From a virus, in the IMG/VR virus record IMGVR_UViG_3300030103_000726, positions 1 through 28,184 of that record: 28,184 bases of DNA. One strand, 5' to 3'. The notes beneath the pieces were generated by a model. That model saw only the letters and a list, made by a program, of their open reading frames with translations. It made no database searches and had not been told where the DNA came from. The translations under genes were made by a program, and so were the position numbers. This document shows positions 1,905-27,309 of this stretch, in pieces. How positions within the stretch are numbered: the first letter of the stretch is position 1; each line of letters starts with the position of its first letter.

Positions 1905-4900
1905 TTAGTCCTCTTCTGGTATTGGGATCTGCTCAAATCCCTTTGTGATTGCTTCTGATAAAAATGGAACACTTAGAAGTCCTCCAAACCTCGCAAGGTT
2001 TTTCAAATCTTGTTGAGAGTAGTCATCGTTCCCTGCGATAGCAGACATGATTTCCTTTGTGGATTTCATTGCTTGATCGCCCATTTGGAACAGTGTGCTT
2101 CCGGTAACGATCCCAGATGCACCCATTGTAGTTCTTTGGTTGAACACAGGGTCAGCACCCATGAGATCTCGCATGGTGTCCACCATCATTGGACCTACGG
2201 TAGACACAGAACTTCGGGTGACCCCGGCACGGACAAGGTTAGCCGTTGAAAACTTATCGTTTAGATACAGCATCCTGTCCACCTCACTCATTCCCAGTGA
2301 TTTCTTCCAGTGCAAGATCTTGTATCCGAGCATCCCAAGGAATGCACCCCCAACAACATTCATCGCCATACGCCCATCCATACCGGCAACTGAGTATCCC
2401 AACTGCTTCGACTTAGACACAATCGAGAACACACGGAACTGCATCAAGGCACGGACAACAGGTCGGTCTAATATTAAAGGCATGTCGCCAAGATAGTTAC
2501 GTTGGACACCTCTATCCACATGGCGGCGGAGTGCGATAGCAAAGTTATCCATCGCGGCTTTATCTTGAACCTTTTCAAAATCAATTTTCTTAACTTTGTA
2601 GTTCCCGAATACGCCTTTTTCAACTTTGGCAACACCATCAGGTCGAGTAAGTTCTTTAATTACTCGATCAATCATTTCATCAGACATGCCGGTTTCTTTG
2701 AACATTCTTCTTGCACCGCCCCCAAAGAATCCCATGTCTGCTCTGATACCCCCCGCTTTCGCAATAGTGAAGCCTCGGTTCACAAACCCTTGGAAGGCTG
2801 ATTCAACCATCCATCGACGGAGTACAGTGTCCGCCGGAAGAATTCCAAAAGGATTCATGATGGCAACTTGTCGAGTTGTATCAATGTAATTTGATAACTT
2901 ACCTCGGATAGAACCAGAAAGTCCGGCTTCGCCTTCCATCATGTCCAGTCTACGAGTGATGTAGTCGCCACGAATCATGTCCCCACCAACACCGGTAAAT
3001 GTTTCTAGTTCGGCCAGTATGTCATCTGCGAGTTCACCTGAGGCACGCCGTCCCTCACCCAGTACAGGCGTTCCGTACACAGCCTTATTTCTTAGTTTCT
3101 CTGGACCCATAGTAAAGGTGCGTCCAATTTGTTTCCACCATGTCCCCCGAGTAAGAGGGACAGCAGCAGACCTTGCACCATTCCGGAATACAACAGAGGC
3201 TATTTCAGGCATCTGGGCTACACCCATCATGGAGCCAAAGTTCGCCATAGCAAGTGCCTGCCCATCACGAACGTGCTTCATCATCTCTTGAATACTTTCA
3301 TCGCCCCCGAAACCAAACCCCATATTAAATCTGTAAAGAGCATCTAGACTCTTAGATGCGGTTCGTGCCTGCGCATCCCCAGTAGCCAGCAAAGCAGCAT
3401 CCATTTGTGAAAGCGTCATCACTTCATCTGAGTCAGGTCGGAATGCTTTGAATCCTCGCCGCAACTCGGTTGCACCAATAACCCGCTGGGCATAAAGAGT
3501 GAGTCCAACGTTCAAGTCTCTGTCCATCAATTCGTCAATGTGGACTGTGCGAGTTCCGTTCTTACCCGTCATGGATGCTGAATAGTTTTCATCCATTGCA
3601 ATACGGCGGTAAGTCATGCCTAAGTGAGGATTACCTGCTTGCTGCGGGGCAACCATGTCCATGATGTCTTTGATTTGTTCTTCCGACAATCCATCTAAGT
3701 CACGGCGGAGTTGCTTTTCAAATACATCAAATGCTTCAGCACTGTCTTTACGCCACCGACCATACAGTTTGGGGTTCTTGTTGTAATCCAGAATACGTTG
3801 AGCAACTTTCCGAGCCTGATCATTATTCAGGGGAGTCTTTCTCGGTGCCCGTTTGATGGCGGAGCCGATGAAATTTAGCATCGTATCTTCACCAAACTCG
3901 TCAATCATCGCAACCGTACGGACATCGTTGTACCGTCTTTGTATGTATTTGGGGTCAAACGGGATATCCTCAAAGACCCCACCCCTCACGCCGTAACCGT
4001 GGAGGTCTTTATAGAACTCACGTACTGCTTTGACAGCCTGCCCCAGTTCACCCGATGGGGTGGCACCGGTGGTGACCGCACGACTGATGTCTTGATCTGA
4101 AAGTTGAACGCCACGTTTGGCGGCGTTGATCTTTGCCAAGTTCATTTTCTTGGATACTTTGGTAACTGACCGCTCAACATTGGTACGGATAATTACTTCA
4201 ACAGGTAGGGCACTGCCCTTTTGTCGGGGGCCGCTAAAGAAGATGGATGCAAAGTCTCTAATTTCTTGGCTATCTGATCTCATCATCTTGACAAATCGAG
4301 ATGTGAGAACACCCCCCGTACCGGGAATGTCGAAGATATCAATTGCCCTAGCAAGTCCTTCTCTAAATCCTTCGTCACGGAAGCCTTCCATAACACGCAT
4401 TCGATACGACTGGGTGCTGGCGGCCTTAGCCAAATCTTCTGCGGAGAGTTCAACAAGATCACTTGATCCCGTCGCCACAGGCACACCATCCACCATGATT
4501 GTTGTTTCGCCTGCATCATCAGTGGCGGTTCTCAGGCCACGAGCCACCTCATCATCAGCAATTTCAAACCGAGTTGCTGGGCGTGAAGCGGTAACTTCAA
4601 ACATGTCGTTGCGTTGAATTCTTTTCTGGAGGGCAGCCAGTCCTTTATCAAGGTCACTGAGATCTACCCTTTTGCCCTCAGCCACTGCCCCAGCAACCTT
4701 TCGTAAAAGTTTGGTAACTTCCAACTGAACACCTGTTGCCGCAAGTTTCTCAGACTCTTTCGCCATAGAGAAGAAAGCATTGGCAACAGTGGTCTGTTCG
4801 CCACGTTCAGCCTTAGCAAGAAGATTATCTATTGCTCCATCTTCTTTGAGTTTGGCTCTAAGGTTTTTGATTGCATCCCGAACGGCTTGTTTGTTACCTG

Positions 4901-23645: not shown

Positions 23646-26057
23646 TTATGAGAAGTAATATTGAGCCTTGTTAATGAGTGAAATATCCAAGTTGCCCTGT
23701 GGAGGCGGCTCGTCCAGTTGGACCCCCGAGGGTAACAAGGTATTGATTTGTGTGTGCAGATCTTTCAAGATATTTCCTGAGAAAAGATCTACGGTAGCAT
23801 CACGCACCGCGTTGCCCACGATAGGTACGCAGGGTGCATGAACACTGTACTCGTCATGGACCATGAGGAAGTCTGTAACTCCTTGGTCCATTGCTCTGTT
23901 GGTTGTCTCACCAAGTAAGCCACCAATGCCATCAATCGAGTGGACAAAGTTGGGGGCCATAGCATTCATAGACTTACGCTTACTGGGGTCACCGTTGTCC
24001 GTACGGATGCGGGTCTGTCGAATGACCCCGAATACATTTGTCTTGATATTCAGATGGTCCTGCTTCTCGTAGTGCATGTATACCGGGAAGCCTAGAGGTG
24101 TTACCCACTGAGGAGTAACGCCGTTATCAAGACATGTCTCAGCCACATGTTGCAGCCAGTCCATGCCAATGCGTGCGGCATGTACAACCTGACCAATAGC
24201 ATCCCAAATCTTCTCAGCCAGCCACCCACATGGTTGGTAAGTCTGGTCGCCGAATGGGTTGGTCTTGCCCTTCTTGAGTTCATCGTAGAACCACTCGGCT
24301 GTGTACTTCTTGCATGAGAAGAATGATGAGCCATAGGGCAGGGTCATCGTCTGTCTCTTGGTTGTCTTACGGGACAAGCCAAACTCACGCCACCCCTTCG
24401 CATACTCATGGGTATCAGTGGCGATCATGTCCAGCACAGTATCGCAAACCTGCTGGTAGATATCGTTTGGTAATTCACAGGGTAAGCAGTTGGTTGCTTG
24501 GGCACTGGTCTGATCTCTCAAGGCCAACGCATAGATCTGCAAGCCTTGGTTGGTTGCATCAATCCCGATGGGTAGAGAGGTATGGAACTGACCACCTTTC
24601 ATCATCCCCGCATACTCAATGCAAGCCGCAAGGAACCGCCAAGGATCATCAGCCTGCGTCCAGTCCATGTTACCAATAGGGTCAAGACCTATCGCATGTA
24701 GCATGCCCGAGTTCTCATGGGTCCACTGAATGCGTTGGTTATAACTGTTCTTATCCATGCCCCAACAGTTGGCGATGTGGATGCGAAGCCACTGCTCACC
24801 AATGTCAGTCATCACTGTTGTTCTATCGAAAGACAACAGGCTTCGAGCAAAGGATGGACCCTGTGGTTGTAGGAAGTAGGGCATTGGGTATACCCGACCT
24901 CTGAAGTCACAGTCGCTGGGATAGTAGATAGTCTCAGCCTTAAACTTCTCCGCAAGACTCATGACCCTCATTGCGTGAAGTCGTTTAGATCGCTGCCTTT
25001 CATTTTCAAAATGCTGGCGGGCAGCACGCCGTCTCCATTCTCTCCGAGCATCTTTGTTTGTATCAATGTCAACAGGCTTGGCAGGCAGGGGTGCATCCTC
25101 TGCGGTAACCAGCCCATCGACAGCGATGTTCTTGTTCCAACAGTGCTGCATTACTTCAAGCACTGCGGTGTTCACCTTGAACGGTGTACCTTGTATTGCA
25201 TTGATTGCCCTGTAAACCTTGGGCATATTCGCACCATTCACCAGTTCAAGGTGACCCTTATCTTTCGTCTTGACCAACGGCCTACGACGGAAGACACCGG
25301 ATGAATACCCGCCCACTATGGAGTCCTGCCACGGGACAGGTCGCTCTACCATAGGGAGAAACACTGGGTCGAGCATCTCCATGTGGGCATGGGCATTCTT
25401 AAGCCACTCAATAAGATCGGCTGAAGGCTCGACCCATTGCTCGGCTTTCCCGTGTTGGTTCTTGCGAGTATTGATATCAATGAGGCCGGTGGATTGCCTC
25501 ATTAATTCCAGACACACAAGTCCAACCTTGATCCTCTCCTGTGCTGACCAACGTGGTATCACGATGTCATGGTGTCGGAGAGATTTCTCTATGAACTTCT
25601 TCTTGGTGTACGCAGACTTGTAACGGTCCATCGCACGGTTGAGTTGTTGCCACAGTGCAGCGTAGTCATCCTTGAGAGTTTGGTACTTGACCTCATCCTC
25701 AATCAGACCACCGATGTTTGCTGCTGTGGCTATAAGTTTGCGACCATTGCTGATGGCATCGAGTGTTGCCCGTGCAGTGAGGGCAGCAGATACCTTGCAG
25801 GGTACTTGGTTCAGGTAAGGCAGAGCAGTATGTCTTTTACCTGAGGATGTGGTGGCATGATCAATCCATTTCTTGAAGTGATCAGTCAGTGACACCACGC
25901 TGTGCTGTAATAGTTTCTGACCTGCCGGATGGGTAGACTCAAGGTTCATTTCCTTGGCACGGGATACCTTGGCTTGGTATCTCTCTTGGCCCATCTTTAA
26001 CATCTCTTGTTCTAGATCGAACTGTTTCAACTGTACCCCTGTCACATTCAGTGACAC
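23646..26057 (-). CDS. Single-subunit DNA-directed RNA polymerase (T7 gp1-like)
   Basis: This 803-residue enzyme (T7: 883) transcribes the phage middle and late genes from phage promoters. Conserved parts are SDCDFRGRVYPMPYFLQPQG (about 381-400), motif A LPIGIDATNQGLQIYAL (Asp500), motif B KTTKRQTMTLPYGSSFFSCK (about 564-583, Tyr575), APNFVHSIDG (about 701-710) and motif C LMVHDEYSVHA (Asp735). The start appears to be GTG at 26057: no ATG occurs upstream before an in-frame stop near 26106, and the next ATG codons come at residues 20 and 23, leaving out family-typical sequence. No strong Shine-Dalgarno is seen. The gene starts 30 bases from the tRNA-like sequence, after the integrase gene. Confidence 0.97.
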   Translation of the reverse strand: MSLNVTGVQLKQFDLEQEMLKMGQERYQAKVSRAKEMNLESTHPAGQKLLQHSVVSLTDHFKKWIDHATTSSGKRHTALPYLNQVPCKVSAALTARATLDAISNGRKLIATAANIGGLIEDEVKYQTLKDDYAALWQQLNRAMDRYKSAYTKKKFIEKSLRHHDIVIPRWSAQERIKVGLVCLELMRQSTGLIDINTRKNQHGKAEQWVEPSADLIEWLKNAHAHMEMLDPVFLPMVERPVPWQDSIVGGYSSGVFRRRPLVKTKDKGHLELVNGANMPKVYRAINAIQGTPFKVNTAVLEVMQHCWNKNIAVDGLVTAEDAPLPAKPVDIDTNKDARREWRRRAARQHFENERQRSKRLHAMRVMSLAEKFKAETIYYPSDCDFRGRVYPMPYFLQPQGPSFARSLLSFDRTTVMTDIGEQWLRIHIANCWGMDKNSYNQRIQWTHENSGMLHAIGLDPIGNMDWTQADDPWRFLAACIEYAGMMKGGQFHTSLPIGIDATNQGLQIYALALRDQTSAQATNCLPCELPNDIYQQVCDTVLDMIATDTHEYAKGWREFGLSRKTTKRQTMTLPYGSSFFSCKKYTAEWFYDELKKGKTNPFGDQTYQPCGWLAEKIWDAIGQVVHAARIGMDWLQHVAETCLDNGVTPQWVTPLGFPVYMHYEKQDHLNIKTNVFGVIRQTRIRTDNGDPSKRKSMNAMAPNFVHSIDGIGGLLGETTNRAMDQGVTDFLMVHDEYSVHAPCVPIVGNAVRDATVDLFSGNILKDLHTQINTLLPSGVQLDEPPPQGNLDISLINKAQYYFS
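26040..26056. repeat. Left TGTCAC pair (candidate integrase arm sites)
   Basis: TGTCAC lies at 26040-26045 on the + strand and in inverse orientation at 26051-26056, eleven bases apart. They fall in the first codons of the RNA polymerase gene, left of the tRNA-like core. The same hexamer occurs twice on the other side of the core. Function as integrase or accessory-protein sites is inferred. Confidence 0.45.
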
Positions 26058-26086
26058 ATCTTGGATTAGTGTACAGGGGAATGGCG

Positions 26087-26176
26087 GTCCCGTGCGGTCT
26101 AAAACCTACATCGAGAAGATTAGGACACCGCCCTTTCACGGCGGCAACACGGGTTCGAATCCCGTACGGGATGCCA
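26087..26176 (+). other. tRNA-Glu(UUC)-like sequence, probable attP core
   Basis: On the + strand, opposite to all genes, 26120-26176 matches the 3' two thirds of a bacterial tRNA-Glu: the end of the D stem (AGGAC), an anticodon arm CCGCC-CTTTCAC-GGCGG with anticodon TTC, a T arm ACGGG-TTCGAAT-CCCGT, the acceptor 3' strand ACGGGAT, discriminator G and CCA. This is what attP carries when an integrase uses a tRNA gene as attB, and it directly adjoins the integrase 3' end. P-SSP7 and temperate pelagiphages have comparable sites near their integrase. The upstream part is odd: GTCCCGT at 26087-26093 pairs with all seven acceptor bases, but a 22-base D loop replaces the usual ~9, so I do not call a functional tRNA. 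The identity region should end near 26120 if it is attP. Confidence 0.75.
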
Positions 26177-26188
26177 TTCCACCTTGTG

Positions 26189-26206
26189 TGTCACAACTTA
26201 TGTCAC
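26189..26206. repeat. Right TGTCAC pair (candidate integrase arm sites)
   Basis: TGTCAC occurs at 26189-26194 and 26201-26206, both on the + strand and twelve bases apart, between the tRNA-like core and the integrase stop codon, which the second copy overlaps. With the pair at 26040-26056 this makes four copies within 167 bases. Confidence 0.45.
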
Positions 26207-27225
26207 ACTATCAGATCGTCGTTATCTGCGCAAGCCTCCAGTTTATCTATGTGGGTCTTGAGTGTCTCAGAGTTGAGGTGAGTGTACCGTTGAGTCGTAG
26301 ACAAATCCTTGTGCCCAGCCAACTCTTGGATGACCCTCATATCGGTCCCCTTCTGTGACAATCTTGAACAGAATGTGTGACGAATCGAGTGGATGCCATC
26401 ACCCTTACCCATACCGATACGACTACGAACTTGCACCCATTCCTCATTGGCTTGGTTGTAGTTCATGGTGAAGTATTGGTCATTGGTTTGCACCTGACTG
26501 AGCAAGCGGACCACCCGCTTTGTCATTGGTATTGACCTCGCATCGTTGTTCTTAGTCTCCCCGTAATGCAGGGTGATAAGGTTCTTATCGAAGTCAGTAT
26601 TGTCTAGAGTCAAGTCGAGTGCCTCACTGATCCGCATGCCAGTATCAAACAACACTGCCATGAGTATGAAGAACTCCTCATGCTTATTCTCTCGACAAGC
26701 CTCAAGGATAGTACGCTGCTCATCTTCGGTGTACCACCTGAACCGAGTGGGGGGTTCACCTTGGCGAGGGACAAAGGGCATACGCTCCAGTTCCTCCCGG
26801 CGATAGGCATGCTTGAGAACCTTGGACACAATGGATATCTTCCGGTTGATGGTTGCTCCACTGTTGCCCTCACGCTCCAACTCAATCGTGTATTGATCAA
26901 GCCGATCCGTGGTGATGTCAGTCAGTAGAGTATCCCTACCAATATCCACCTGAACAAGGCTGAGTCTGCTTCTAGTTTTATTAGCAGACTTGCCCTTGCT
27001 CCACTCAAGGTTCCAAACCTCTTCACTGGATTCTCCAAATGTTTTCCCAACTGATTCAGTTACAATTCCTTGACGGGGGAAGGGGTCAAGTCCTTCTAGT
27101 AATCGAGCCTTGGCTTTCACCTCGGCCTCAGACGCATCTTGATACGTCTTGTAGTCTTTTCGATAGCGTTGTCCACCTTGAACAAAGTCAACTTGAAAAG
27201 ACTTGCCACGCACACGAATAGTCAT
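26203..27225 (-). CDS. int: Tyrosine-family site-specific integrase
   Basis: This 340-residue recombinase would insert the phage at a host tRNA-Glu gene. The catalytic set is complete: Arg198 in LFDTGMRISEALDL, Lys225 in YGETKNND, His279 and Arg282 in HSIRHTFCSRL, His305 in LAGHKDLSTTQRYTH and nucleophile Tyr314. The N-terminal ~60 residues resemble an arm-binding domain (MTIRVRGKSFQVDFVQGGQRYRKDYKTYQDASEAEVKA) and residues about 65-150 the SAM-like core-binding domain. I chose this ATG because GGAGG lies five bases upstream; a GTG at 27303 would add 26 basic residues but has no ribosome site. A strong terminator separates it from upstream genes, so it likely has its own promoter. Confidence 0.95.
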   Translation of the reverse strand: MTIRVRGKSFQVDFVQGGQRYRKDYKTYQDASEAEVKAKARLLEGLDPFPRQGIVTESVGKTFGESSEEVWNLEWSKGKSANKTRSRLSLVQVDIGRDTLLTDITTDRLDQYTIELEREGNSGATINRKISIVSKVLKHAYRREELERMPFVPRQGEPPTRFRWYTEDEQRTILEACRENKHEEFFILMAVLFDTGMRISEALDLTLDNTDFDKNLITLHYGETKNNDARSIPMTKRVVRLLSQVQTNDQYFTMNYNQANEEWVQVRSRIGMGKGDGIHSIRHTFCSRLSQKGTDMRVIQELAGHKDLSTTQRYTHLNSETLKTHIDKLEACADNDDLIV

Positions 27226-27309
27226 ATCCACCTCCATATTGTTTTGGATGATTGACTTTAACAAACGCTTGAATCTGCGCCAAGTTTTGTTTCGCTTAAC
27301 CACATTTAT

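Follow-up and report, generated by a model that had tools for sequence, protein, structure and literature searches.

Integration into a host tRNA gene by means of an integrase (int) and an attachment site (attP) has been shown experimentally for T7-like cyanophages (PMC8776855). In the cyanophages S-TIP37 and P-SSP7 (Autographiviridae), int is followed by a tRNA-derived attP and the target is tRNA-Leu; the attP of S-TIP37 corresponds to the 5′ half of the tRNA. The order int, tRNA-half attP, RNA polymerase gene recurs in pelagiphages HTVC105P and HTVC048P and in contig S35-C6, where the halves are, as judged by eye, 5′ halves of tRNA-Leu (HTVC105P, S35-C6) and tRNA-Cys (HTVC048P). LUZ100, HTVC200P, HTVC119P, RHEph01 and others have related integrases and a tRNA beside int that scores as a complete gene. 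For the complete tRNAs of LUZ100 and of pelagiphages, imprecise excision has been proposed (PMC10134795). Among genomic islands in tRNA genes, class A of Islander is characterized by an anticodon-centred crossover and a 3′ tRNA fragment that restores the target (PMC4383910).

The window analysed here, a stretch of 28,184 nucleotides, is part of a 33,124-base IMG/VR virus record and shares this layout. A gap of 145 bases, which holds a tRNA-Glu-like site, separates a tyrosine integrase gene of 366 aa (26203-27303, minus strand; Pfam Phage_integrase PF00589, E 1.4e-28) from a T7-like RNA polymerase gene (23646-26057, minus strand), the best Autographiviridae match of which has about 35% identity at 98% coverage (tblastn). 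Homologues of int were found in integrase-bearing T7-like phages, and the gene order is that of integrase-bearing Autographiviridae. We infer from the sequence a marine, T7-like phage that is capable of integration. It differs from S-TIP37 and P-SSP7 in its target, tRNA-Glu, and from S-TIP37 and the pelagiphages in carrying a 3′ half; its tRNA-like site, in contrast to those of the LUZ100 group, does not score as a complete gene. Unlike the Islander class, it is a phage genome known from its unintegrated form. In the examined set, complete tRNAs near int also occur in L069, a Limnohabitans phage and S31-C1, and 5′ halves (by eye) in SS120-1, L071 and L074, while int and the RNA polymerase gene almost abut in L063-L066 and L073. 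Fewer members of this set are of the 3′-half type. The window adds a tRNA-Glu 3′ half to a phage group in which the examined attPs are mostly tRNA 5′ halves or complete tRNAs.

The core of the site (26120-26179, plus strand) consists of the 3′ half of a tRNA-Glu(UUC) gene including CCA, which a sequence-only reading had already recognized at 26120-26176, and of three flanking bases. It lies 24 bases from int. A search of bacterial genomes, which that reading had suggested, gave exact matches to the 56 bases 26121-26176 in 29 genome contig stretches, all of them alphaproteobacterial by title (SAR116, Micavibrio, Rickettsiales and unnamed MAGs), and at all 21 loci tested the match lies inside a tRNA-Glu gene called by ARAGORN. 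Within the order of one SAR116 genome (SAR116-order in the following), 108 of 136 genomes have the match. The best one covers 60 of 60 bases (26120-26179) and extends slightly past the tRNA, the others have 57-59 identical bases, with the identity to the host gene running through CCA. Judged from these alignments, the identity of the 3′ half to the host tRNA-Glu clearly exceeds chance, and its most plausible role is that of an attP core for the adjoining tyrosine integrase. The attP role that had been proposed is supported by this identity, by the adjoining integrase and by flanking repeats. The idea that the tRNA-Glu 3′ sequence acts as a host tag holds at broad resolution: it points to SAR116-type Alphaproteobacteria and thereby provides a probable host group for an uncultured marine T7-like phage. 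In this respect the site is a commonplace tRNA attP that gives a helpful clue to the host.

In several SAR116-order genomes the tRNA-Glu 3′ half occurs additionally in incomplete copies that are preceded by foreign sequence. We read these displaced fragments as what would be expected from integrated elements, which suggests that the tRNA-Glu gene is a frequent integration target in these genomes. In the displaced copies, identity mostly sets in at the anticodon stem or loop, and further viral contigs that share the 3′ half likewise start at TTTCAC or in the anticodon stem; a crossover in the anticodon loop (CTTTCAC, 26133-26139, plus strand) is therefore likely. Islander has a class for anticodon-centred crossovers (PMC4383910). 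The motif TGTCACA is found on both flanks of the core; 186 bases hold three copies, where shuffles predict 0.02. The candidate sites to the left are TGTCACA (26040-26046) and the inverted GTGACACA (26051-26058), those to the right TGTGTCACA (26187-26195) and TGTCACA (26201-26207), all given for the plus strand. Roseophages CRP-804 and CRP-403 have similar repeats in the gap that separates int from the RNA polymerase gene. We read the TGTCACA repeats as candidate arm sites of the integrase. The integrase would probably recombine the anticodon-loop region of 26120-26179 with the host tRNA-Glu(UUC) gene, upon which the phage-borne 3′ half, being identical to that of the host, would rebuild a whole tRNA-Glu at the int end.

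We consider it likely that the site is the attP of an integration-capable T7-like phage and that the resemblance of the sequence next to it to tRNA 5′ strands is coincidental. What argues against this is that the search for prophages at tRNA-Glu, another check that had been proposed, found none of this phage in the 136 SAR116-order genomes when the RNA polymerase gene was used as query (a single match with 25% identity), although integration may be rare.

The displaced 3′ fragments mentioned above lie in the SAR116-order regions L133-L149, where several genomes hold one or more of them in the tRNA-Glu region, as for a repeatedly used integration target; L149 looks like a diverged second tRNA-Glu. 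The viral contigs L042-L048 and L051 have near-identical upstream sequence and carry the tRNA-Glu 3′ half from the anticodon loop onwards. A search of these contigs for relatives of the window integrase came up empty, and they are therefore probably parts of other elements that target tRNA-Glu as well.

The window phage also has sequence resembling the missing part of the tRNA. As had been described earlier, GTCCCGT (26087-26093, plus strand) pairs in all seven positions with the acceptor 3′ strand ACGGGAT (26166-26172), and the D stem, GTCT (26097-26100) with GGAC (26123-26126), pairs 4/4 around a loop of 22 bases (26101-26122). These are joined by an anticodon arm (26128-26144; loop CTTTCAC, anticodon TTC), a T arm (26149-26165) and the GCCA end (26173-26176). 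The earlier description had missed an extra base: three bases link acceptor and D stem, versus two in the host tRNA. In addition, TCCCGTGCGG is a 9/10 direct copy of TCCCGTACGG at 26160, which is due to the T-stem/acceptor junction ATCCCGTACGGGAT being a palindrome.

Intact arms, complete acceptor and D-stem pairing and an encoded CCA might be taken to indicate a functional tRNA, or a tRNA mimic, with an enlarged D loop. We regard this as highly improbable and have rejected it on the basis of tRNA finders, fold and non-conservation. ARAGORN, one of the tRNA finders that the sequence-only reading had proposed, calls no tRNA at the site, and Rfam aligns only 26120-26166 with 27.4 bits, below the cut-off of 29, so that the cloverleaf as a whole is not recognized by either model. 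The cloverleaf is not the favoured fold (-26.8 versus -32.7 kcal/mol for the best predicted one). The predicted RNA prefers to pair GTCCCGTGCGG into the T stem, which is thereby broken; the predicted T-stem probability is 0.04, compared to 0.97 in the host tRNA. Moreover, the tRNA-like plus strand is opposite to the flanking genes, no promoter-like site was found, and the 5′ strand is absent from relatives.

These relatives are the viral contigs L034 and L035, which share the attP site with the window and have an identical core; eight viral scans (with int, RNA polymerase, core, arm-site and spacer patterns) brought up no other contigs in which this attP occurs. In the 29-base spacer that precedes the core (26087-26115, plus strand), the window differs from both relatives at 12 positions, while the surroundings hardly differ (2 of 231 bases in L034 and 3 of 231 in L035). 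GTCCCGT is present in the window phage and absent from both relatives. The relatives read GTTTCCTGCCGCTTTAATCCTCCCTAAAG in the spacer, with an alignment score to the host tRNA 5′ end of 4 versus 10 for the window. We have rejected a unique hypervariable cassette, as other 29-base segments of the same alignment reach 12-16 differences; the spacer behaves like an unconstrained block among constrained parts. A further close relative, L037 (about 530-560), has an RNA polymerase with 98% and a C-terminal int part with 91% identity; its int and RNA polymerase gene overlap directly with no attP between them, but as the contig ends inside int, an attP may lie elsewhere.

That core and flanks are nearly invariant and the spacer is not argues for coincidence in a neutral spacer, which is the most likely explanation of the acceptor match: the 29 bases would be unconstrained, and their similarity to the acceptor and D strands would most likely be without function. 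Among 59-base stretches of this genome, 6.6% allow acceptor pairing in all seven positions (G-U included), 0.4% contain the exact 7-mer, and 0.33% align to the host tRNA 5′ end as well as the window does; 0.6-2.1% of block replacements reach the plus-strand fold energy. As the feature was chosen after the fact, these figures are post hoc and suggestive, not convincing, and the 5′ strand exceeds chance only weakly.

An argument against coincidence comes from comparison with the host gene. The alignment of GTCCCGTGCGGTCTA to GTCCCGTTCGTCTA of the host needs a single substitution and a single insertion, which most random draws do not attain, and in a three-sequence alignment all seven differences that separate the window from the relatives in the spacer's first 15 bases agree with the host tRNA. 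These differences may be the trace of a patch that was copied from the host gene, and a host-derived patch is a live alternative to coincidence. The 5′ strand would then be host tRNA-Glu 5′ sequence that the phage picked up through imprecise excision, recombination or template switching; this could have happened recently in this lineage, or in an ancestor, with the sequence later decaying in the relatives. Complete tRNAs near int in related phages, and their attribution to imprecise excision by the authors of the LUZ100 study (PMC10134795), count in its favour, as does the fact that the identity in this lineage already extends 8 bases (TTAGGACA) past the edge that the core has in most other elements at tRNA-Glu. 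On the other hand, two other places in the window align better to the host 5′ end, the D loop that is larger by 13 bases and the extra base need to be explained, and both close relatives lack the match though they are otherwise hardly different. L034 and L035 do not settle the choice between patch and chance because they are nearly identical to each other in the spacer. We consider an origin from the host, in either of its two variants, unlikely. Slightly less probable still is the specific form in which the spacer has been overwritten in one lineage by a copy of the host 5′ half, with the attP growing towards a complete tRNA. If true, the overwritten spacer would be a snapshot of such growth towards the state found in LUZ100, HTVC200P and L069, and a host-derived 5′ strand would be relevant to the question of how phages gain and exchange attachment sites. 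Of the three explanations offered by the sequence-only reading, chance is thus favoured and the tRNA mimic disfavoured, while the relic of an imprecise excision keeps a small share, with a match that is confined to this one phage.

The pairing might also be part of a longer inverted repeat that forms a DNA or RNA hairpin or a protein-binding site. Adjoining GTCCCGT, the repeat GGAATGGC / GCCATTCC encloses the site, with its left arm at 26078-26085 and its right arm at 26173-26180, overlapping the tRNA GCCA end. L034 and L035 retain it in a 10-bp form (GTGGAATGGC), and the combined plus-strand fold is among the best 0.6-1.2% of block replacements. The relatives' block, however, shows no excess stability, 32-43% of the block-replacement controls being as stable on the plus strand, and no terminator-like site was found. 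We therefore regard this explanation as very improbable. The same controls led us to reject a structure conserved by compensation, despite a cloverleaf-like best fold in the relatives.

We also rejected the idea that attPs as a rule bring along the opposite acceptor strand, as neither other attPs nor junction loci gave a significant signal. Shuffle values were 0.08-0.96 for thirteen other attPs, some of which are near-copies of each other, and at least 0.25 for all of ten SAR116-order tRNA-Glu junction loci; an eleventh scored locus (L151) is an intact host gene, and other fetched loci did not match the pattern. A mirror-image case is seen in L071 (4064-4172), which carries the 5′ half of a tRNA with CAT anticodon: about 50 bases after the tRNA half, CGGGCCC can pair with the acceptor 5′ strand at 7/7 positions, one of them as G-U (shuffle value 0.08).

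A different arrangement was observed in HTVC200P, HTVC119P, the Limnohabitans phage, S31-C1 and L069. Here, a complete tRNA near int is accompanied by a separate copy of the anticodon loop of 10-11 bases in the gap between int and the RNA polymerase gene, which is reached by 0-6 of 20,000 shuffles. Complete tRNA and copy are located at 2396-2481 and 3575 in L086, at 4077-4165 and 4176 in L069, at 3800-3888 and 3761 in L084, and at 3552-3624 and 3723 in L098; the pattern also occurs in L096 and is weaker in L083 and L085. One reading is that the short copy is a putative attP core, such that integration would break the host tRNA and the phage would supply the replacement.
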